Below, piece after piece: positions 3,861 through 33,300 of a stretch of DNA of 64,000 nt. The DNA is from Leyella stercorea DSM 18206 (GTDB lineage: Bacteria; Bacteroidota; Bacteroidia; Bacteroidales; Bacteroidaceae): the NCBI RefSeq assembly GCF_000235885.1, contig NZ_JH379436.1:1-64000 (forward strand), read 5' to 3'. Position 1 is the first letter of the stretch; each line of letters opens with the position of its first letter. The position numbers and the translations under genes were made by a program. The notes under the pieces were generated by a model, which saw only the letters and a list, made by a program, of their open reading frames with translations, ran no database searches and was not told the origin of the DNA.

Positions 3861-4403
3861 CTATTCTTGCGTTGTGTCGTTGATGTTGTCTGTGTGCAGA
3901 ATGACACTCGTAGCACCAATTGTGAACAATGTGCCGTCCTCGATAACGCGTTGCTCGCGGTCGCCAAGAATAACGTTGTCGACGAAGGTACCAGTGTAGC
4001 TCGGTCCGTCCTTAAGCACATACTTCAAGTTGCCCTTTTTGTCGCGGCTTACTGTGATAGAACAATGGTTGATGTCGATGCTCGGGTCGTTTGTCTCGAT
4101 AGCGCAGTTTACACCGCTATTCTTCATGTAGCGTCCGACGACGTTCACACCCATGTGTAGCGGAATGACCTGCTTGTAATGGAATACGTTTTCGATAACG
4201 GTGATGTAGCCACACTCGCTTCCTTCTGCATTTTCTTCAGGAATATCCTCTTTCTGCGTGTTGCGCAGTTTTGAAACACCAATGCGTATGCCGAATTGCT
4301 TGCCACAGTCGGGGCATTGGAATACTAACGACTGTCCTTCGGTGTATTTCTTCTCGTCGAATGTGATGAAGTTATCACATTTTGGGCATCTTACTCTTTT
4401 CAT
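3861..4403 (-). CDS. zinc-ribbon plus FHA domain protein
   Basis: The 180-residue protein begins with a CxxC...CxxC zinc ribbon (CPKC near residues 6-9, CPDC near 30-33). This is followed by a forkhead-associated domain at about 85-170, with VVGRYMKNSG (the conserved Gly-Arg), INHCSITV (the Ser/His position) and a GTFVDNVIL strand. FHA domains bind phosphothreonine peptides, so a role in phospho-signalling is likely, but no kinase is encoded here. Its ATG directly abuts the stop codon of the upstream HU/SPOR gene (0 bp), which implies co-transcription and possibly translational coupling. Confidence 0.85.
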   Translation of the reverse strand: MKRVRCPKCDNFITFDEKKYTEGQSLVFQCPDCGKQFGIRIGVSKLRNTQKEDIPEENAEGSECGYITVIENVFHYKQVIPLHMGVNVVGRYMKNSGVNCAIETNDPSIDINHCSITVSRDKKGNLKYVLKDGPSYTGTFVDNVILGDREQRVIEDGTLFTIGATSVILHTDNINDTTQE

Positions 4404-5620: not shown

Positions 5621-6424
5621 ATGTATAAAAATATAGCAAAAACTTTATTTGTTCTGCTGCTTGTCCTCAAGGTAAGTGCGTGTGGAAATCGTCAGAATAA
5701 GGCGGTAGAGCCGACGGAAGATTTAACAGCAAAGCATGATTTGCAAGGAATATGGCTTGATGAGGATGGGGAAGATGTGGCTTTTCGTGTGAAGGGCGAT
5801 TCTGTTTATTTCCCCGATTCGACCAGTGTACCTACGTATTTCCGCATCGAGAACCACTCGTTTGTGCTCATAGGAGGCAAGACTACTAAGTATAAGATAA
5901 TGAAGCAGACACCAAATGTGTTCGAGTTTAAGAACCAAAGTGGTGAGATTGTGAAGCTTTACAAGACTAACGACGCGTCGTACATGGATGCTTTCGTGCC
6001 AAAGGCGGTGCAGAATATTAATCAAAAGAAAGTGGTGAAACGTGATAGTGTTGTCTTCTTCAACGATGAGAAGTATCATTGCTACATACAGATTAATCCA
6101 ACAACATATAAGGTGGTGAAGCCATCGGTTAATGATGACGGAGTAGAGGTGGACAATGTGTATTATGACAATATTGTTAACCTAACGGTGTTCAATGGAA
6201 ATAAACGCTTATTCTCTGCCGATATGCGTAAGGAGGCGTTCGTCAATGAGGTGCCAGAACAGTTCCTGAAACAAGCAGTTTATAGCGATTTGTATTTTGA
6301 TCGTATTGATGCGGAAGGTTTACATTTTTTCTCTGTTCTTGCTATGCCAGAGACATCAATAAGCTATATGGTAGAATCTATTGTAGAGTTTAATGGTAAA
6401 CTTATAAAGCGGATTAAAAAGTGA
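5621..6424 (+). CDS. putative lipoprotein, DUF4738-like
   Basis: The 267-residue product has a signal peptide (MYKNIAKTLFVLLLVLK) ending in a lipobox VSAC with the lipid-acceptor Cys at about residue 21. It should therefore be an envelope lipoprotein. The body starts with a GIWLDEDGEDVAFRVKGDS stretch and alternates short beta strands, which suggests a lipocalin-like or beta-sandwich fold. I think it resembles the DUF4738 family of Bacteroidales, from memory only, and no biochemical role is known to me. It is monocistronic with its own strong promoter, and the next gene is convergent. Confidence 0.8.
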   Translation: MYKNIAKTLFVLLLVLKVSACGNRQNKAVEPTEDLTAKHDLQGIWLDEDGEDVAFRVKGDSVYFPDSTSVPTYFRIENHSFVLIGGKTTKYKIMKQTPNVFEFKNQSGEIVKLYKTNDASYMDAFVPKAVQNINQKKVVKRDSVVFFNDEKYHCYIQINPTTYKVVKPSVNDDGVEVDNVYYDNIVNLTVFNGNKRLFSADMRKEAFVNEVPEQFLKQAVYSDLYFDRIDAEGLHFFSVLAMPETSISYMVESIVEFNGKLIKRIKK

Positions 6425-6482: not shown

Positions 6483-6556
6483 AAACAAAAAACATAGATT
6501 GTCTCACGACAACCTATGCTTTCTTAACCTTAATAATCTAATACCATGAAAAACAC
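6483..6556 (-). ncRNA. candidate small RNA with intrinsic terminator
   Basis: On the minus strand a -33 TTG (6589-6591), a 20-bp spacer and TATCTTTG (6561-6568) predict a start near 6555. About 50 nt downstream is an 11-bp stem (arms 6508-6518 and 6493-6503, one wobble/mismatch) with a 4-nt loop, followed by an uninterrupted run of Us (6487-6492, continuing past 6484). The transcript of about 74 nt has no ORF of note. The arrangement (promoter, short body, strong terminator) fits a small RNA. It may belong to the family of paralogous short sRNAs reported in Bacteroides (FopS), an attribution from memory. Confidence 0.6.
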
Positions 6557-23422: not shown

Positions 23423-23851
23423 TTTTAGCGGACAGCCGATGTGTGGACAGCTAATAAATTTGCTCAGCAAGGAAGAAATTCTCAAATTCAGTCGCGAACA
23501 TAACGGAGAACGCTACGTTAAGCTTTTTGATGCCTACCAGCATCTGGTTATAATGCTTTACGCCGTTATCAAGAGATTTAACTTATTGCGTAAAATTACC
23601 GACTTCATGTTTCCCGAGGCACGTAAGCTCGCTCATCTTGGCATAAAGACCATGCCAAGGAGCTGCACATTGTCGGACGCCAACGCCAGCAGGCCCGCAG
23701 CCATGTATGAGGACACATACCGCAGCCAGTATGTCAGATACAATGACGAACTTTCCTCGGACAGCCGAAACCGGCAGGTCTCCTCATGGCTCACCCGTCT
23801 GCAAATCATCAACTCCACTATAATAACCTTATTATTGCTGTCCGCTAAAAC
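23423..23851 (+). mobile_element. IS deletion derivative with 14-bp terminal inverted repeats
   Basis: TTTTAGCGGACAGC at 23423-23436 recurs exactly inverted at 23838-23851. Between them lies the 5' part of a transposase gene joined directly to the right end, as in an internally deleted, MITE-like copy. Total length is 429 bp. No target-site duplication is visible. A third, imperfect end-like sequence (TTTTAACGGAC) lies outside at 23885-23895. Confidence 0.7.
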
Positions 23852-23963
23852 TCCAAAGAGCATAAATTTCCTACCGAAGTCCAGTTTTAACGGACTTATA
23901 AGCGTAATATCCGAATTTATAACGACTATTCGCACGTTTCAATATAGAATGGTAAATGATTAA
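23439..23963 (+). pseudogene. transposase remnant, IS4-like with DUF4372-type N-terminus
   Basis: The first about 125 residues (GQLINLLSKEEILKFSREHNGERYVK, LRKITDFMFPEARKLAHLGIKTMPRSCTLSDANASR) match the N-terminal region of IS4-family transposases with a DUF4372 domain. The expected catalytic IDSTT segment reads IINSTIITL, so the first catalytic Asp is Asn. The coding sequence then runs into the right inverted repeat at 23838, and the remaining residues are read-through of flanking DNA. The catalytic core is missing, so the product cannot transpose itself, though an active relative could mobilise the ends. Confidence 0.75.
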
Positions 23964-24055: not shown

Positions 24056-24769
24056 CTATTCAACATCTTTATATTTCCATATATACCCACCTGCAGATTT
24101 TCTTTGTCCTTTACATACTGCAGATATTTTGCCATTTGCAATCGAATATTTTATTTCTGCTTTCCTTATGCTATTCCACTCTTTAACAAATTTTCCTTCT
24201 TTCGTGTATTGTAATACAGCCTTTGGAGTTGGTTGATGTGTAGGCGTAAATTGATTTATATCAGTATTATCATCTTCGTATCGAAATACGTATCCATGCG
24301 TACTTTTTGAGTCATGTCTTGCTGTAGATAAAATATATTGTCTATCAATTCCTGTCGCTATCGCTGCTTTCTTTGGAGAGTCATATCTAGCAATTTCATT
24401 TAGTTTTAAATCAAATTGGATTATTGTTTTTTTCTTTTCATTAAGGCTGTACTTACATTTAGGACAACATGGATACAATACCATTTTATTCACTCGTTTA
24501 ATCCATTGATGCCCGCATTTTGGACATTTCCAACTTGCCTTATAATCACACATTGATGTTACATCATCAGCAGTTTTTTCTTTATTATTTTCAATATCCC
24601 AAAAGACAGCAATCTCTGGATTCTTTTGTAATAAAGACCCATGTCTTGCTAAAAGAACCTCTCTCATTATTTGTGAATGATTATATTTATAACATTGGGA
24701 ACAACCTTTTCCATTTGCTCTATTATCTGGTGTCGCTGTCCATACATAACCACAGATATGGCATTTCCA
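24056..24769 (-). pseudogene. 3' part of split zinc-ribbon / NUMOD1-like gene
   Basis: This continues the reading frame of the 24770-26248 gene after a single TAG at 24770-24772. The 34 codons directly after the stop are open and finish a zinc ribbon (WKCHICGYVW...CSQC). The next in-frame ATG is at 24667, giving a 203-residue ORF. That part holds one more zinc ribbon (CPKCGHQW...CPKC) and two NUMOD1-like modules: IIQFDLKLNEIARYDSPKKAA with THGYVFRY, and VLQYTKEGKFVKEWNSIRKAE with AGGYIWKY. NUMOD1 modules are DNA-binding units typical of homing endonucleases. Whether it is translated separately is unknown. Confidence 0.7.
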
Positions 24770-26248
24770 CTAAACGACTTCCGAATAGTGAGACGGGATT
24801 TTGTTAGGAAATACATTCAAGGTCTCATTTTTCTCATAAAACCAATCTTTCAATAATTCTGGATATTTTTCAGCAAAAGATCCATTCTTTTTTACATATG
24901 TTTTGCGTTTGGTCACTTTGCGTAGCTCTTCTGCACAATATGGGCATCCTGTTCCTTGAATCCTATCAGCAACAGTTGCCGTCCATTTATGTTCAGGAAA
25001 ATTCTTGCAAATCCAATATACTTTTTGTTTACTATTACCGGCGGATATATTGTTTGGCATTATACCCTGTTTCCCATTCTCTTTGTAATCCCATTCGTCA
25101 AGTAATTGAGGACTTTTTGTTGCAAAGTCATTAAATCCAATCAGTAACTTTACACCGGCACAATATGGACAACCATAGCCTTGTGTTCTGCTTGAAGAAG
25201 GTGCATACCAACTATGTCCATTCTTGCACTTCCAATATAGTTTTAAACTTGAGCCACGGCTAATACATTCTGGGTCTATATTTCCGTTCTTTTCATAGTC
25301 CCATTCAGTAAGCAAATGAGGATAAAGTCTTGCAATGCTATTCTCTTTCTTTCTTGTGAGATAAGATTCCTTTATGGCAACTTTGTTTTTCTCTACATCA
25401 ATTGCAACATATGGAATACCTATCAAATAACAAAGATTTTCTATAGCATAATTTAAATATGCGTAATTTTTGTCATAAATAACATGAACAGCATCTTTTT
25501 TCACACTAAAATATTCAGACTCTATAACTCTATATAACTTTATTCCCATTTTTTGCAGAAGAACTTCTTTTCTTTCGTCTCTTGCCTTCTGTTTAGGTGT
25601 TTTATGCTTTGGCCCATCATATTCAATTCCTATCATTTTTGAGGGAATAAATATATCTATATGAGAATTGTTTTCTAATTTATATCCATTTATGCATTCT
25701 ATATGTTGGTTAAAGTAAAAATATAACACTTGCTCAGGAAATGATGTATGCATCTCCCTCTGACAAATAGGACATTCACCAGACGTTCTATGCAATCTGT
25801 AAGACACACTATTCTTCCAATGATGCCCACGTTTACATACCCAATGAACTTGTGTCTTGGTGTCATGATTAGTAACATCCTCCGAGAATATGCCTTCTTG
25901 TTCGTTTTTCTCATAATCCCATTCCTTTAACAATTCTGGATTTGTTATTGTTATAGGATCTTCTCCATATCGCTGATTAGTTCTACCTTTTATTGCACAT
26001 CTCTTACATGGGAACATTTTCTTAGCATGGCTTTGAATACTTGTCGGAGTTTCACTTTTATAGCCACACACATGACATTTCCAATAAATAAGTTTATTTG
26101 ACCCAGATAGAAAATCAGATGGTTTGTATGGTTGATTCCTTTCATCATCATAGTCCCAATCTAATGCTCTTTCTGGATAGTTATCTTCAAAACTACCCTC
26201 CTTTAGGATTCGTTTCAATATATATGATTTCTTGTAAGGATCATTCAT
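24770..26248 (-). CDS. multi-zinc-ribbon protein with Vsr/DUF559-like nuclease domain (5' part of split gene)
   Basis: The 492-residue product has four zinc ribbons of the DUF4379 type: CHVCGYKS...CKRC near 58, CKRGHHW...CPIC near 138, CKNGHSW...CPYC near 340, and CKNFPEHKW...CPYC near 410. Each is preceded by a conserved LL.EWDYEKN. Inserted at about 168-240 is a PD-(D/E)XK-like nuclease of the Vsr/DUF559 sort: SFPEQVLYFYF, HIDIFIPSKMIGIEYDGPKH and LLQKMGIKLYRVIES. The frame stops at TAG (24770) in the middle of a fifth ribbon, where Trp is expected, and the same frame continues to 24056. Intact length would be 730 residues. Plausible roles are homing-type or defence nuclease; this is inference. 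Confidence 0.75.
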   Translation of the reverse strand: MNDPYKKSYILKRILKEGSFEDNYPERALDWDYDDERNQPYKPSDFLSGSNKLIYWKCHVCGYKSETPTSIQSHAKKMFPCKRCAIKGRTNQRYGEDPITITNPELLKEWDYEKNEQEGIFSEDVTNHDTKTQVHWVCKRGHHWKNSVSYRLHRTSGECPICQREMHTSFPEQVLYFYFNQHIECINGYKLENNSHIDIFIPSKMIGIEYDGPKHKTPKQKARDERKEVLLQKMGIKLYRVIESEYFSVKKDAVHVIYDKNYAYLNYAIENLCYLIGIPYVAIDVEKNKVAIKESYLTRKKENSIARLYPHLLTEWDYEKNGNIDPECISRGSSLKLYWKCKNGHSWYAPSSSRTQGYGCPYCAGVKLLIGFNDFATKSPQLLDEWDYKENGKQGIMPNNISAGNSKQKVYWICKNFPEHKWTATVADRIQGTGCPYCAEELRKVTKRKTYVKKNGSFAEKYPELLKDWFYEKNETLNVFPNKIPSHYSEVV

Positions 26249-26565: not shown

Positions 26566-27081
26566 CTATGGTGTTTCCTGCAATTCACGAATAGCATTTG
26601 GATTTTCTTTTTCTTTATTATATAATTCACGAGAAACTTTCTCGTACTTAGTTTCAACTGCAAGAAAATCGTCAATATCTTCTTCCAGAAGTTGGTCTAA
26701 TATCAATTGGGTGCGTTCTATATAGTCTTGAAAGCATAACAGCATAAATCCTGGAAGTCTTTTATGTTTATTATGTCCATGAAATTGATATATTGCATCT
26801 TTAATACTATTAGAATCATACATGAACATATCGAATCCTTGAAGCTTTCTTTTAGTATCCGTGTGATAGAAATTATATACAAGAAGACCAATAGTAGGTT
26901 TAAGTTGTAGATAAAGAAAACGGAGTTTTTCAAGCTTATTATTTCTTACGACAGTTTCATATTCTTCCACAAATCCGTATTGTGAAAGTAATAAGTTCGT
27001 TTCAAAACAGTCTTTATTATGTTTGTTAGTAACATCTTTCATGTTTTTTCTGTGTTTATATGATTTTAGGGCTTGAAACAT
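26566..27081 (-). CDS. hypothetical protein
   Basis: I do not recognise this 171-residue protein. It has no signal peptide or membrane helix, and is rich in Lys, Glu, Tyr and Phe. A predicted helical centre (KLEKLRFLYLQLKPTIGLLVYNFYH) is followed by a highly charged helical C-terminus (LLEEDIDDFLAVETKYEKVSRELYNKEKE). A minus-strand -7 box (CAAAGTTA on the plus strand, 27099-27106) precedes it. The start could be 27081 or an internal Met at 27042. Codon use is AT-rich compared with flanking addB, in line with acquired DNA. Confidence 0.65.
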   Translation of the reverse strand: MFQALKSYKHRKNMKDVTNKHNKDCFETNLLLSQYGFVEEYETVVRNNKLEKLRFLYLQLKPTIGLLVYNFYHTDTKRKLQGFDMFMYDSNSIKDAIYQFHGHNKHKRLPGFMLLCFQDYIERTQLILDQLLEEDIDDFLAVETKYEKVSRELYNKEKENPNAIRELQETP

Positions 27082-27398: not shown

Positions 27399-30341
27399 CT
27401 ATAGTCCGCAGAGCATTCGGTAGGGGCAAAGCTCGCACTTCTTTCTGTCGTCAGTAGGTGTGAAGGGGACGTTGGGGGAATACATGTCGGCTACGGTCTC
27501 CTTGAGTTTTGTGAGGAACTCCTCCTCGTAGACCGTCACGTCGCTTATCGGGTGTTTGTCGATGCAGAGCGTCGGGTCGTAGTGGTTGGCGGGGGCTTGC
27601 TTTATGAAGAGCAGGGCTGGGCTGACGGGGTGGTCAGCGGGGTTCCAACGCTTGGAACGGCTGACGATGAGGGAGTAGAGTATCGCCTGGAGGTAGTAGT
27701 TGGAGTGTTTGGTGCGGATGTTGTTGGGGTCGAAGATTTCGTCGATGCTCTTTATTGGGCTGGAGGGTTGGTTGCCGGTCTTGTAGTCGACGACGCGTAT
27801 GCGTGGCTTGCCGGTCTGCTTGTCGGTGAGGATGTCGAGGCGGTCGATGATGCCGCCGATGGTGAGGTGGTGGTGAGATGGTGAGGTGGTGAGGTGGTGA
27901 GATGGTGTGGTGGTGAAGGACAGCTGCGTGTACACCTTCGCTTCTTCCTCCATAGCCAGGATGCTGAACGGGCAGAGCTGCTGGTCGATCTTGAGGAGCT
28001 TGGTGATGTACTGGATTATCACCTCGCGGTTGATAATCTGCAGTCCGTTGTTGGTCTTGCATTCCTCCTCCTCGAAGGCGCGGTCGACGACGTTTGCCAG
28101 GAGGGTGCGGTTGCTGAGGTAGGCCTGTATGTGAGCCTTCTCGATAACCGGACTATGGTCGCTGATGTCCTTATATATAAGGTATGCCGCGCGGTGGAAT
28201 ATGTTGCCGAACATGCGGTTGTCGATAGTCTCGGGGTCGCTGTCAGGTTCCTTTATGTGTGCTATGTACTGGTAGTAGAACGCCAGTTTGCAGCGTATGT
28301 ACGTGTTGATAGCCGAGGGCGAGAGGCGGCTCATCTCCTCGAGCTTGCTGAGGGCAGTCTCGTCTTTCTCTATGGGTTTCGGCATCAGAGGCGTCGGCTG
28401 GTTCTTCGCCGTCAGACTGTAGTAGTCTATCTTCTGTCCGCTCTCCACGAGCAGCTGCAGCATGAAGCGGCTCATCTCGCCGGTGTGTCCGTTGTCGGTG
28501 GAGTTGTTGTAGGCGATGGTGATGTCGCGGGCGCGCTGCAACAGGCGGTGGAAGTAGTAGGAGTAGAGGGCTACCTTGTTGTCGATGGTGGTGAGTCCGT
28601 GCGCCTTGCGTATGGAGTAGGGTATGAACGACGAGTCGTTGATGCCCTTGGGCATGTTGCCTTCGTTGCAGGAGAGGAGGAGGAGGTGGTCGAAGTCGAT
28701 GTTGCGCGTCTCGAGCACGCCCATTATCTGTACGCCCACAACGGGCTCGCCGTGGAAGGGTATGGACGAGGAGCTGACGAGCTGGGAGACGAGTCGGCGC
28801 AGCGTGGTGTTGTCGACGAGGAGGTCGCCGCTGTCGGCTAATGTGGCGAGGCGGTTGAGTATGGTGTACATGCGGAAGACTGACTCCTGCGTGAGTGGGT
28901 CGCCCTCGGGCTTTGTGGCTATGCCCACCTGCTTTATGAGGGTGGCGATGTGGTGAAGGATGGGTGAGGTGGTGAGGTGGTGAGATGGTGAATTTGGTTG
29001 GTGCACTTGAGACAAGTGCACCCCCTGAATGTGGTGTGCGTAGGGGTGCGCCATGAGCTTCTTAAGGTAGTGGGGGTTGAGGGCGGTGCCCTTCTTGCGC
29101 AAGCCGAGCGTGTAGAGGTCGAAGAGCAGCATCACGAGCGAGGCTACGGGCGTCATGGCGAGGGGGAAACCGCTTGTGATGTTGACCTTGTCGGCTTCGG
29201 GCGGCAGGCTGTGCATGATGGGCAGCAGTATGCTCTCGTCGCACATCACTATGGCTGTCTTGCGGCCGGCACGGTAGCGGTGGTTCTCGAGGAGCCAGTT
29301 GCTCGCGAAGCGCGCCTGCGCGTTCTCCGTGGGCGAGGAGATGAAGCGTATGCGTTTGGGTCGGCGCATGTTGGCGTAGATGTCGGGGTCGGTGTTGTCG
29401 AGCTCGTTGGGGAAGTCGGAGATGTTGAGGTGTTGAGATGGTGAGGTGGTGAGATTGGTTGGTGCACTTGAGACAAGTGCACCCCCTGAGAGGTGGTGAG
29501 ATGGTGAGGTGGTGAGGTGGTGAGATGGTGAGGTGTTGAGGTGGTGAGATGGTGAGGTGTTGAGGTGTTGAGATGGTGAGGTGTTGAGGTGGTGAGATGG
29601 TGAGGGCATGTAGTATTCGTCGAAGTCCCAGTAGAACTTCGCCTTGCCCTCCTTCATCAGTCGGCTGAACAGCACGCGCTCCACCTTCTGCAGGAGGTTG
29701 AAGCCTACGAACAGATACTTGTCGTACTTCATCTGCAGCGTCTCCTCGCTCACCACCTTTCTATATATGGCGCCCTCGTAGCCTATGCCCTGCTCGGTGA
29801 GGCGGCGGTTGTAGTCGTGGTAGATGTCGCCGAAGTGAGACCACAGACTGAGGAAACGCTTCTTCAGTTCGGAGTCGATGTCGTCGCTGAAGTTGGCGAA
29901 GAAGCGCGCAAGCATCTCCTTCTGCTCGTTGTCGAGATAAGATATGTCGTCGAGCTCGTGAATGTCCTTAAGGTTGCAGAATATGCTGTCGGCGTCAGCC
30001 ATGTTCTTGTCGATGTCGTCGAAGTCGGCAAGCAGCAGCTGTCCCCAGCCGTAGAAGTGGTCGAGTGTCTCGTCGATGCCCGTACACTTCGTGAACGACT
30101 TGTGTATGTCGCATATCAGCTTTATAGGGTCGGCGGTCTTGAGGTCGGTATGCTGGCGGAAGAGGTCGCTGATGGTGATGTACGCAGGGCTCCATATGGG
30201 CTGACCAGCAATGCGCGCAAGATGCTCGTTGAGGAACAGAGCGGCACGCTTGTTGGGGAACACGACGGCGATGCGCGAGAGGTCGGTGCCGTACTTGCCG
30301 ATTATATCTTCTGCGACATATTCTAAGAATGTCTTGTTCAT
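27399..30341 (-). CDS. addB: AddB-like helicase-nuclease subunit with repeat insertions
   Basis: A 980-residue PD-(D/E)XK nuclease family protein, partner of the AddA helicase in recombinational end processing. The N-terminal inactivated helicase domain starts with IAVVFPNKRAALFLNEHL. The nuclease is C-terminal: GGIIDRLDILTD near 828, VVDYKTGN near 850, and iron-sulfur cysteines at about 687 (CKLAFYYQYI) and 969/972/978 (CELCPYRMLC). It carries in-frame low-complexity inserts made of SPSHHLTT-type octapeptides at about 246-284, 296-307, 447-462 and 809-826, plus two copies of a 35-bp palindromic repeat. The last insert abuts the first nuclease motif. Catalytic motifs are intact, so it is probably functional. 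Confidence 0.88.
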   Translation of the reverse strand: MNKTFLEYVAEDIIGKYGTDLSRIAVVFPNKRAALFLNEHLARIAGQPIWSPAYITISDLFRQHTDLKTADPIKLICDIHKSFTKCTGIDETLDHFYGWGQLLLADFDDIDKNMADADSIFCNLKDIHELDDISYLDNEQKEMLARFFANFSDDIDSELKKRFLSLWSHFGDIYHDYNRRLTEQGIGYEGAIYRKVVSEETLQMKYDKYLFVGFNLLQKVERVLFSRLMKEGKAKFYWDFDEYYMPSPSHHLNTSPSQHLNTSPSHHLNTSPSHHLTTSPSHHLSGGALVSSAPTNLTTSPSQHLNISDFPNELDNTDPDIYANMRRPKRIRFISSPTENAQARFASNWLLENHRYRAGRKTAIVMCDESILLPIMHSLPPEADKVNITSGFPLAMTPVASLVMLLFDLYTLGLRKKGTALNPHYLKKLMAHPYAHHIQGVHLSQVHQPNSPSHHLTTSPILHHIATLIKQVGIATKPEGDPLTQESVFRMYTILNRLATLADSGDLLVDNTTLRRLVSQLVSSSSIPFHGEPVVGVQIMGVLETRNIDFDHLLLLSCNEGNMPKGINDSSFIPYSIRKAHGLTTIDNKVALYSYYFHRLLQRARDITIAYNNSTDNGHTGEMSRFMLQLLVESGQKIDYYSLTAKNQPTPLMPKPIEKDETALSKLEEMSRLSPSAINTYIRCKLAFYYQYIAHIKEPDSDPETIDNRMFGNIFHRAAYLIYKDISDHSPVIEKAHIQAYLSNRTLLANVVDRAFEEEECKTNNGLQIINREVIIQYITKLLKIDQQLCPFSILAMEEEAKVYTQLSFTTTPSHHLTTSPSHHHLTIGGIIDRLDILTDKQTGKPRIRVVDYKTGNQPSSPIKSIDEIFDPNNIRTKHSNYYLQAILYSLIVSRSKRWNPADHPVSPALLFIKQAPANHYDPTLCIDKHPISDVTVYEEEFLTKLKETVADMYSPNVPFTPTDDRKKCELCPYRMLCGL
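27857..27915. repeat. GGTGAGATGGTGAG-type repeats in addB, nuclease insert
   Basis: A low-complexity tract of GGTGAGGT / GGTGAGAT octamers. On the minus strand it encodes TTTPSHHLTTSPSHHHLT just before the GGIIDRLD nuclease motif. Confidence 0.85.
28950..28990. repeat. GGTGAGATGGTGAG-type repeats in addB, second cluster
   Basis: Two to three copies of the octamer repeat. They encode SPSHHLTTSP on the minus strand directly beside the 35-bp palindromic element at 28994. Confidence 0.8.
28994..29028. repeat. 35-bp palindromic repeat, copy 1
   Basis: Identical to 29455-29489. The core GTGCACTTG-AGA-CAAGTGCAC is a perfect 9-bp hairpin. It is read on the minus strand as GVHLSQVHQPN. Confidence 0.9.
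29421..29607. repeat. largest repeat block in addB
   Basis: About 19 GGTGAG(A/G)T or GGTGTTGAG octamers in two runs (29421-29454 and 29490-29607), interrupted by the 35-bp palindrome copy at 29455-29489. The longer run encodes five consecutive octapeptides of SPSHHLNT type. Confidence 0.9.
29455..29489. repeat. 35-bp palindromic repeat, copy 2
   Basis: Exact copy of 28994-29028, but in a different reading frame of the same gene. Here it encodes SGGALVSSAPTN. Frame offset relative to codon 1 differs (0 here, 2 in copy 1). Confidence 0.9.
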
Positions 30342-30358: not shown

Positions 30359-33300
30359 TTAAACTTCAACGATGTTGTCCGAATAGACGTACCAGAGGTA
30401 GCCCTTCACGTCGGTGTAGCCCATGTTGTGCGTGAGCGATATGTAGCGCTGCACCTGGTCGGTGTGCTCGGGCTGCGGCTTGCCGAACTTGAAGTCGACA
30501 ATCTGCACCTCGTCGCCGCGTTTCATCACGCGGTCGGGGCGGTGCTCCGTCAGCTTGTCGGTGTGTGGGTCGTAGCTGAGGATGGAACACTCGTTGAAGA
30601 GCGTCCAGCCGCTACCGAACCACTCCTTCACCTTTGGGTTAGAGAAGCGCTTGTGGAGCATGTTCTTCAGTTTGTTAGGCGTGATGACGCTTTCGTCGAA
30701 CAGACCTTCCATCTCCATGTCGTGCAGACAGCGGTCTACGTCGGCGGCGGTCTCGATGTTAGAGAACAGATAGTGGAGTAGCAGACCCGTCTTGATGTAC
30801 GACTGCTGCTCTGCCTGCTCGTCGTCAGCTTCGTCGTTGATGAAGTCGCGACTCTTGTTGCTCTGCTTGAACTCTACGTTCGAGGCGTAGGTCTTCATCG
30901 GCAGCAGGAGGTTCTCTACGTGCGGCGTGAAGATGTTCGGCTCCTCAGCCTTTTTCTTCTCCTTGGTGGTGTCTATCTCGCCGTAAGTGAGGGTGAGGTG
31001 GTGAGATGGTGAGGTGGTGAGGTCGCCTTCGAGCGAGCAGTCGGGCAGCTGCATGTCGCTTATCGCTTGCTCTATCACGTACGAACGCAGCGACGCGTTG
31101 CCGCGGCGTGCGAATACGATTAGGCTGCGCTCGGCGCGCGTGAACGCCACGTAGAGCAGGTTGAGGTTGTCTACGCAGTTCTGCAGATGCTCCACGATGT
31201 AGTCGCGCTCGTATATTGTGCCCATCATCTGTTTTGCGCTGAAGTCTACCGGCACAAGCGGCAGCTCGTTGAACGGAGCCTCCGTAGGCTCGCACCATAT
31301 AGTGTTGGTCTTCTCCATGCGCCAGTCGCAGAACGGAATGATGACGTGCTTGAACTCCAGACCCTTACTCTTGTGTATGGTGATAAGGCGTATGCCGTCG
31401 ATGGAGCGTGCCTGGATGGTGTTCGACGCGAAGTTCTCGTTCCACTCCTCAACGAAGTCGTCGAGTGTGGCCGTGTTTGAGGTGAGGAAACTGGTGAGGC
31501 AGTCGAAGAAAGCGTATACGTAGGCGTCCTCGCCCACGATGCGCTCAAGACTGAATATCTTGTAAAGACGTTCGGCAAGTTCGTAGATAGGCATCTGGAG
31601 CAGTTCGTCGTTGTGGTCGCGGTAGTTGGCAGGCAACGCTTCCTCTACGCCCTCCTCGGTAGAAACCATGCGGTTGGCAGCTTCGAGGTCTACGCCCTTC
31701 ACCTTCGTGAGGTAAGCCTTTGCGATGTACGCCCGTGTCAGTTTGTCGTCCTGGTGCGTCAGCGAGTGCATCGCCGCTACGAGGATGTTCAGCGCCGTAG
31801 AGTTGTCGAGACGGAAAGCCTCGTCAGACACAATCTTCAGTTCGGGACGCATACAGGCGAAGTGCTCCGCAATCTGCTGTATGGTGTTGTTGGAGCGCAC
31901 GATGATGGCTATGTCCGAAGGGTCGGCTCCGCATTCTATCAGATGGTCTACTGTCTCGACCGTCTTGTTGAGTGTGATGTCGGTGTAGTCGTCCTGCGGA
32001 AGCAGCTCGATATGTACGTATCCGGTGTCCTCGCGCTTGTCGGGCACCTGCTGGCACACGTCGGCATACGCACTCTTCAGCTGTTCGGCAAGCTGCATGT
32101 CGTCCTCGCCGCAGCACTCCTTAAGGTCGTTGAACTCTATCTCGGCGGCACGCTCGAAGAAAGCGTTGTTGAAGTTGATGACACGGCGCGACGAACGGTA
32201 GTTGTGCGTCAGCGTGCGTATGTCGAGCATGTCGCTCACCTGCGGAAACTCGCCCTTGATGTTGTTCAGCATACGCCAGTCGCCCGAACGCCAGCGATAG
32301 ATGCTCTGCTTCACGTCGCCCACAATCAGGTTGCCGTGCTCTTCGCTGTGGCTCATGCACTCCTCGAGCAGCACCTTGAAGTTCTGCCATTGCACGGTGC
32401 TCGTGTCCTGGAACTCGTCGATCATCACGTTCTCCAGATGCGAGCCTATCTTCTCGAAGATGAACGGTGAGTCGGTGTCCTTGATGAGCGAATGGAGTAG
32501 GGTGTGGGTGTCGCTGAGCAGGAAGCGGTTTGCCTCGACGTTCATCTCGCGCACCTTCCGCTCAATGCTGTTGAGCAGGCGCAGCTGGTTGAGATGCTTC
32601 AGTGTGAGTACCGCCGATGCGTACATCTTCCAGTTGCTCCGGCGTGTTGCTTCCGCCTTTTCGAGAAGCGGCACGATGGTCTCCTCGGCGAAGTGACGCA
32701 GCGATGGCGGTGCACTCTTCTTCGTCCAGCAGTCGGCAGAGCCTTCGTCGAGCGCCTTCTGCACTCTGCTGGTGATGATGCTCTCGTCGTATTGTCCGTT
32801 CTGCAGTTTGATGAAGTAGCCGGCAGGTCCCGACTTGCCGTAGCTAAGGTCGGCGATGTCAACACCTTCCGTTTCGAGAGCCTCGAAGAACTCCGCCGCA
32901 ACACTTTTCAGTTCCGCTTCGGCTTCGTCGCGTATGGTTCTGATGCGCTTAGTGTACTGCTCGAAGAAGCCCTTTTCGTGCAGCAATGTGTTAAGCTCCT
33001 TGCTCTTTGTCTTGTAGAACTCGCGGAAGATGTTCTCGCCGAACGACTTTATGTAGCCTATGACGTTCCAGTTCTTGTCGTCGTCGATGTTCTCCTTTAT
33101 ATAACCGAGAATCCACTTCAGCAGTTCGTCCTTTTCGCCCAGTTCGTCGATCATCTCGTCGACGGCGATGCTCTCAATCTGTCGGTCGTTAAGCTCGATG
33201 CGCAGGTTGGCCGTGAGGTCGAGCTCGCGTGCAAGATTGCGCAGCACACTCTGGAAGAACGAGTCGATGGTCTCGATGCGGAAGTAGCTGTAGCTGTGTA

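Follow-up and report, generated by a model that had tools for sequence, protein, structure and literature searches.

The window (the whole stretch of 64,000 nucleotides analysed here) comes from contig 106 of a draft assembly that divides a 3.1 Mb genome into 147 contigs. On its minus strand, from 26248 to 24056, 730 codons lie in one frame, closed by a final stop and interrupted by a single internal TAG. The original prediction had placed a gene split by one in-frame TAG at this interval; the split was confirmed, with the gene on the minus strand. The features of the locus are as follows.

24056..26248, minus strand: whole interrupted frame, with DUF4379 array, internal Vsr-type nuclease and NUMOD tail
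24770..26248, minus strand: ORF1, 492 aa, ending at the in-frame TAG (open reading frame list; AlphaFold2 model)
25997..26176, minus strand: DUF4379 repeat 1, approximate limits (Pfam, four stretches in ORF1; sequence and alignment)
25763..25939, minus strand: DUF4379 repeat 2, approximate limits (Pfam; alignment)
25412..25756, minus strand: Vsr/EDxHD-type nuclease domain, residues 165-279 (Pfam, profile, PHROG and structure comparison)
25160..25321, minus strand: DUF4379 repeat 3 (Pfam, best stretch 312-365)
24935..25111, minus strand: DUF4379 repeat 4, approximate limits (Pfam; alignment)
24770..24772, minus strand: in-frame TAG (alignment column Trp in 5/6 relatives, Ser in L021)
24692..24862, minus strand: DUF4379 repeat 5, cut by the TAG, approximate limits (Pfam; alignment)
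24056..24667, minus strand: ORF2, 203 aa, from the first ATG past the TAG (open reading frame list)
24452..24610, minus strand: DUF4379 repeat 6 (Pfam, ORF2 residues 20-72)
24332..24430, minus strand: NUMOD1 module (Pfam, ORF2 residues 80-112, E 1.8e-6)
24077..24184, minus strand: I-HmuI-type NUMOD-like module (Pfam E 4.3e-10; PADLOC HEase 1.5e-13; PHROG 20162 5.5e-19)
23439..23963, plus strand: IS4-type transposase remnant adjoining the nuclease gene, DUF4372 domain (Pfam)

Pfam recognised six DUF4379 domains in the 730-codon frame (six stretches, E 1.9e-78), bearing out the six zinc ribbons of the original prediction; their fold is probably a treble clef. The nuclease sits between the second and third of them, at residues 165-279 of 730, and its Pfam match, to the MTES_1575/Vsr-type nuclease (E 1.1e-7), lies under Pfam's curated score cut-off. 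Ribbon and nuclease match PHROG 559 ('HNH endonuclease', E 7e-25), nuclease and ribbons also match the phage 'homing endonuclease' PHROG 3339, and PHROG 4538 matches the nuclease of one relative, L083 (228-331), and the window tail (410-446 of 447). These are phage families, named as annotated; 4538 has no assigned function. The embedded PD-(D/E)XK-type nuclease foreseen for this protein is thus of the MTES_1575/Vsr type according to Pfam, PHROG 559 and the predicted structure. The two NUMOD modules expected at its end proved to be NUMOD1 and an I-HmuI-type NUMOD, forming a tail like those of phage homing and HNH endonucleases, crAss-like phages included (PADLOC, PHROG). The domain content therefore agrees with the combination that had been proposed, in which a nuclease is joined to homing-endonuclease modules and to an array of DNA-binding type.

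The gene lies between two genes that we take, from their protein sequences, to be kup and addB. GC content is 31-34% across 24-27 kb, 40% just before and 50-57% just after, and the remnant at 23439-23963 (plus strand) matches DUF4372 (E 1.3e-18), in agreement with an AT-rich island next to an IS remnant; its IS4-family match is weak, far below cut-off. A 171-aa ORF (26566-27081, minus strand) also adjoins the nuclease gene. It was ruled out as a companion gene, with matches in 0/59 relatives and no Pfam match. kup stood beside addB in 0/19 AddB regions of relatives (some end at a contig edge), no empty site for the window gene was recovered from these regions, and the window locus is without usable synteny. 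Searches for direct repeats of at least 11 nt around the gene, and for Rfam introns in the window, found none.

Predicted fold and known relatives

ORF1 was modelled with AlphaFold2 from an alignment of 63 rows (mean pLDDT 90.8, pTM 0.61). Model residues 165-279 superimposed on I-Bth0305I (3r3p_A; Z 9.2, rmsd 2.9, 91 aligned), on E. coli Vsr (1cw0_A; Z 8.9, rmsd 2.7, 100 aligned; 1vsr, Z 8.5) and on 3hrl (Z 9.3). Because other PD-(D/E)XK folds are close behind (McrC, Z 7.5), and two mitoribosome chains match the same residues with Z 9.4 and 8.5, the Vsr-like fold by itself is not specific for EDxHD/Vsr homing endonucleases. Foldseek alone ranked 3r3p tenth (E 0.11); a nuclease-only profile (54 rows) searched against the PDB ranked it first (E 6e-5). 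All 54 rows, the window included, agree at nine nuclease columns (S, E, Y, D, E, Y, G, H, K), so that homologues lacking the nuclease residues, which would count against the original prediction, were not seen among them.

The array matches kinetoplastid mitoribosome proteins in sequence (E 1.7e-21) and in fold, and its fold also matches many phage and giant-virus proteins named endonuclease, restriction endonuclease or treble clef. DNA binding by the DUF4379 array is not certain, because the closest solved DUF4379 proteins are those of the kinetoplastid mitoribosome. Among the proteins that share the array fold, mS66 and mt-SAF33 of kinetoplastids are ribosome parts or assembly factors, while the giant-virus DUF4379 proteins carry the names 'restriction endonuclease' and 'treble clef'.

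The nearest description is that of a group of homing endonuclease genes (HEGs) in phage group I and group II introns, which encode three to five ~60-residue CapR/DUF4379-related domains and an EDxHD/Vsr-like nuclease (PMC12350094, NAR 2025). Only this paper and its preprint were relevant among the literature matches listed for the pair of DUF4379 and Vsr. Those HEGs resemble the window protein in joining domains distantly related to CapR/DUF4379 to a Vsr-like nuclease. They differ in having the nuclease at the C-terminus and the gene in an intron, whereas here the nuclease lies inside the array, a NUMOD tail follows, and the gene stands on a bacterial chromosome with no Rfam-detectable intron. 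Compared with them, the internal nuclease, the NUMOD tail and the secA elements described below are variants of the published type. The claim that the system was undescribed is therefore correct only in part, the union of CapR/DUF4379-like domains with a Vsr-like nuclease having been reported for phage intron endonucleases in 2025.

I-Bth0305I (PDB 3r3p) is a phage-derived enzyme, entered in the PDB as a 'mobile intron protein', which has the nuclease fold and the profile match given above in common with the window protein. In this EDxHD enzyme the nuclease is joined to an elongated multi-module DNA-binding part (PMC3943268). The window protein likewise pairs its nuclease with a modular region, made up of six DUF4379 domains and two NUMODs, whose DNA binding is predicted. 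The fold is also common to E. coli Vsr, a small repair enzyme of 134-155 residues in the PDB entries and without an array, in contrast to the 730-codon multi-domain frame of the window. MTES_1575 has been described as a Vsr-family REase (PMC3710099).

Spread of the family and apparent movement between sites

When 150 genomes of the genus were searched at the protein level, seven matched, the own genome included. Long matches over array and nuclease were found, besides the own genome, only in G001 and G088; one genome (G052) matched in the ribbons only, and three showed weak matches around the nuclease. Judged by MAG titles, relatives are largely Firmicutes, Saccharibacteria and Prevotella-type, and the best-matching named homologues (L019-L021) come from Prevotellaceae, Bacteroidaceae and Prevotella MAGs. 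ORF1 further matched 5 phage records and 64 plasmids, and viral contigs contributed 67 loci; in the plasmid records listed, the family is mostly annotated 'zinc-ribbon domain-containing protein'. Uninterrupted relatives are common in gut bacteria, and the family also occurs in phages. The frame was open over 450 codons or more in 79/80 genome loci, these being the best 80 of 155 relatives, a selection in which decayed copies are under-sampled; consistent decay in relatives, which would weaken the original prediction, was not seen among them. Two identical contigs, L073 and L074, carry an in-frame stop with 110 further homologous codons (L073, 9965-11770).

Pfam scans of 65 members detected DUF4379 in all 65, MTES_1575 at E 1e-3 in 26, the I-HmuI-type NUMOD (PF22083) in five and NUMOD1 in two, the window included. 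An absence of NUMOD modules from homologues, a point on which the original prediction was vulnerable, is thus what most of them show. Since the tail is rare it does not define the system: nuclease and array are the family core, and the NUMOD tail is an addition. Proteins of the family contain 4 to 12 repeats (82 proteins). A modular code in these repeats is not claimed. Among 14 overlapping pairs some repeat positions seemed variable between repeats and fixed between orthologues, a signal that faded with independent pairs; 12 pairs without locus reuse gave a weak effect (lowest conserved-position p 0.0035 among 18 positions, uncorrected). Scans of 12 of the 67 viral loci and of seven of the 80 genome loci found no Rfam intron. 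On one viral contig (L134, 9836-13514), 23 consecutive tRNA genes lie just downstream of a family member. In L027 (1134-5297) a serine recombinase and a DUF4379-nuclease are fused in one 1388-aa open frame; in L028-L030 the nuclease part exists as separate genes with 99% identity to it.

Near-identical family members occur in different species, and close members at unrelated sites. Flanks of up to 6 kb, many of them short, were compared for all homologue pairs of at least 60% identity (n=71); 47 pairs showed no flank similarity and 24 showed some. Three copies, L020, L021 and L215, have 85-87% protein identity. Their DNA match starts between ATG-40 and ATG and ends 3-29 nt beyond the last sense codon, and no flank similarity was found among them within the 6 kb searched (just 1.1 kb upstream in L021). 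The simplest reading of these alignments is that little more than the gene relocated between the three sites; rearrangement of whole neighbourhoods is an alternative that keeps some plausibility. L071 (82% to L021) has the same downstream flank as L021, and flanks are common to both members in several further pairs, which indicates that some copies have stayed in place. The original prediction that the gene is mobile is supported by apparent near gene-only transfer between unrelated sites in relatives.

Repeats of at least 16 nt flank 6/63 genes, the window gene among the 63, compared with 0.2% of 1241 shuffled pairs. Those of L075, at the starts of two similar genes, are probably unrelated. 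L088 has an 18-bp direct repeat at 4147, the stop of the upstream gene, and at 6028, right after the nuclease stop. No empty site was recovered for G001/purL or for L088. A recombinase ORF was detected in the flanks of at least 17/75 loci, and within 2 kb in at least seven (five serine, two tyrosine), counts that are lower bounds since only six query sequences were used. In L057 and L095, different members stand behind a 78% identical gene, presumably pyruvate phosphate dikinase as read from its sequence, and a serine recombinase follows that is 65% identical. No partner family was prominent among the 25 Pfam families shown (of 130) for the 137 nearest neighbours, the commonest being family paralogues (5), helix-turn-helix domains (5) and SecA (3).

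In L051, L083 and L084 (Erysipelotrichaceae/Bacilli MAGs per title) the nuclease gene lies behind secA. L083 and L084 are 95% identical in the nuclease and 68% in SecA. Their DNA identity per 100 nt is 46-87% in secA and 98% at about its last 70 nt, 80-91% up to the first 100 nt of the gene and 93-100% to position 1700, after which it drops. Behind the gene, the last 30-40 nt of secA recur in all three loci, as a 40-bp perfect repeat in L051, a 28-bp repeat in L084, and with 5/30 mismatches in L083. The shared right end that precedes this second copy is 87-95% identical over 120 nt. A displaced secA fragment of ~200 nt at the right end was considered and proved wrong; secA accounts for the last 30-40 nt only, and element sequence for the remainder. 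From the secA stop to the second copy, L084 contains one ORF of at least 90 aa, and L051 and L083 contain the nuclease and one ORF without a Pfam match. The nuclease gene looks like the sole gene of a tiny mobile element in L084.

The second secA-end copy was found in 5/19 secA regions, comprising L051, L083, L084 and 16 relatives, several of them contig-ended. L258 and L259 have the second copy with other cargo, and L259 partly shares the nuclease-bearing right end. A tyrosine integrase lies behind secA in 4/16 relatives, 159 to 1741 nt away. From the secA-end copies and these integrases, the secA 3' end looks like an integration hotspot, and the duplicated 3' end with neighbouring tyrosine integrases points to integrase-type insertion at the secA loci, in which case the nuclease would be a passenger there. 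A direct repeat of the host-gene end on both sides was seen in L051, L083 and L084, and not at the window gene. It is conceivable, though we consider it unlikely, that DUF4379-Vsr genes are the sole long gene of minimal, integrase-less elements (~2.9 kb in L084) that insert at and duplicate host 3' ends, the nuclease itself mobilising the element or parasitising integrases of the same site. We know of no single-gene integrative element of such a kind.

Homing and cargo readings

With moderate confidence, we prefer to see in the window a homing-endonuclease-like, horizontally mobile gene, present as a single copy that a nonsense codon interrupts. Without the stop, the protein would recognise a long DNA site through its treble-clef array of DUF4379 domains (here with a phage-type NUMOD tail) and cut it with the internal nuclease of Vsr/EDxHD type; the gene would then spread through repair or recombination that uses the nuclease-bearing copy. 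The analysis itself shows the domains, the predicted fold, the kept nuclease residues, the stop and, in relatives, an apparent near gene-only transfer. We infer that the array binds DNA and not RNA, that cutting is site-specific and that homing is the route of transfer. In its fold, its modules and the way its genes behave, the family resembles free-standing homing endonucleases, with cutting predicted.

The main rival to homing would make the gene cargo, moved by integrases or serine recombinases of host elements and encoding a defence or competition nuclease that uses its array to recognise phage sequences or those of rival elements. We consider this unlikely, although a serious contender. 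Such transport would fit three observations: the repeated secA 3' end that closes the secA segments of L051, L083 and L084, the integrase ORFs behind secA in 4/16 relatives, and the recombinase ORFs situated 2 kb or less from the gene in at least 7/75 loci (five serine and two tyrosine). Some neighbours also match defence models. However, defence-model families numbered 56 in 137 near genes and 39 in 99 far genes (families counted, not genes), which is no excess and leaves the defence setting of the original prediction unsupported. PADLOC analysis of five members returned 'homing endonuclease' models and three weak partial matches (DpdF, DruE and mad1), and the neighbours include housekeeping genes, for example SecA (3/137) and a gene that we take from its sequence to be purL-like.

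The interrupted copy

On the preferred homing reading, the best description of the window gene is a homing-endonuclease-like selfish gene whose copy here is dead or dying. Past the TAG the frame remains open for 237 further codons, up to 24056, as originally noted, an openness seen in 0/20000 random order-1 sequences of that composition. This part is homologous to the family, with two DUF4379 stretches (E 2.7e-18), an I-HmuI_NUMOD-like match (6.5e-10) and NUMOD1 (2.8e-6), and it retains its zinc ligands as read from the alignment. The TAG had been said to fall where a ribbon Trp is expected. That is right, Trp occupying the column in 5/6 aligned homologues and the equivalent repeat position in 78% of 626 repeats from 82 proteins, yet the position is not invariant, the sixth homologue (L021) having Ser. 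A recoded TAG, as in a phage code, was rejected, TAG being a regular stop within the window: it is the stop of enolase, AddB and others, and terminates 9/32 open frames of at least 300 codons, ORF1 included.

Identity of the window frame to Prevotella-type relatives is ~45% across the four pre-stop ribbons, 34-37% across the nuclease and ~30% across the last ribbon, where the lower value may reflect greater variability or decay. A lost N-terminal ribbon remaining upstream of 26248 was also considered and rejected, as no remnant was found there. ORF1 alone still encodes a complete nuclease domain and four zinc domains; one and a half zinc domains and the NUMOD tail are missing from it. The window copy as a whole is most likely non-functional, a loss of function that we infer. 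Since TAG is an ordinary stop here, and the zinc ligands and invariant nuclease residues of the window frame are retained, the frame most probably reflects recent breakage of a gene, or a sequencing error, rather than two proteins. Of the two outcomes first offered, a recent lesion thus holds up, and separately made halves find no support.

An error of sequencing or assembly at the TAG, or variation between strains with the gene intact in the population, strikes us as improbable. A single altered position, the presence of all later domains, a 147-contig draft and the abundance of uninterrupted relatives would all fit an error; the genome is, on the other hand, rated 99.86% complete with 0.29% contamination, and nothing speaks directly against an error. 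Far more doubtful are two working proteins from the two frames, or readthrough of the TAG. The post-TAG frame does have an ATG start (203 aa), and L073/L074 likewise have one in-frame stop, but the TAG lies inside a zinc domain, 34 codons separate it from the second start, the window uses TAG as a regular stop, and a single frame is the rule among relatives. A role as a chromosomal enzyme of mismatch repair (Vsr-like) or other DNA housekeeping, to which the Vsr fold (1cw0_A, Z 8.9) might point, is scarcely credible for a gene so sporadic (7/150 genus genomes, with long matches otherwise only in G001 and G088) whose close homologues occupy different sites, and the mismatch nuclease features originally suggested find no support, the likeness to Vsr being one of fold only.

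The window itself carries a modest message, that of one broken copy. Should uninterrupted members of the family cut long specific sites, they would offer a large number of array-guided nucleases not yet exploited, and gene movement without an integrase could be tested directly on the secA elements.

Two minor features of the window were also recorded. A Bacteroidetes FopS sRNA (RF04319, 67.7 bits) lies at 6485-6556 on the minus strand. An 8/24-bp tandem unit, GAGGTGGTGAGATGGTGAGGTG, recurs within the addB and addA frames, where it yields TSPSHHL-type peptide repeats; it occurs in the window at 27861-27916, 28941-28991, 29419-29455, 29490-29605 and 30992-31023. Genome-wide, the unit gave 32 partly overlapping matches with at most one mismatch on 11 contigs, compared with 0 for the reversed control, and is a dispersed repeat tolerated within coding sequence.
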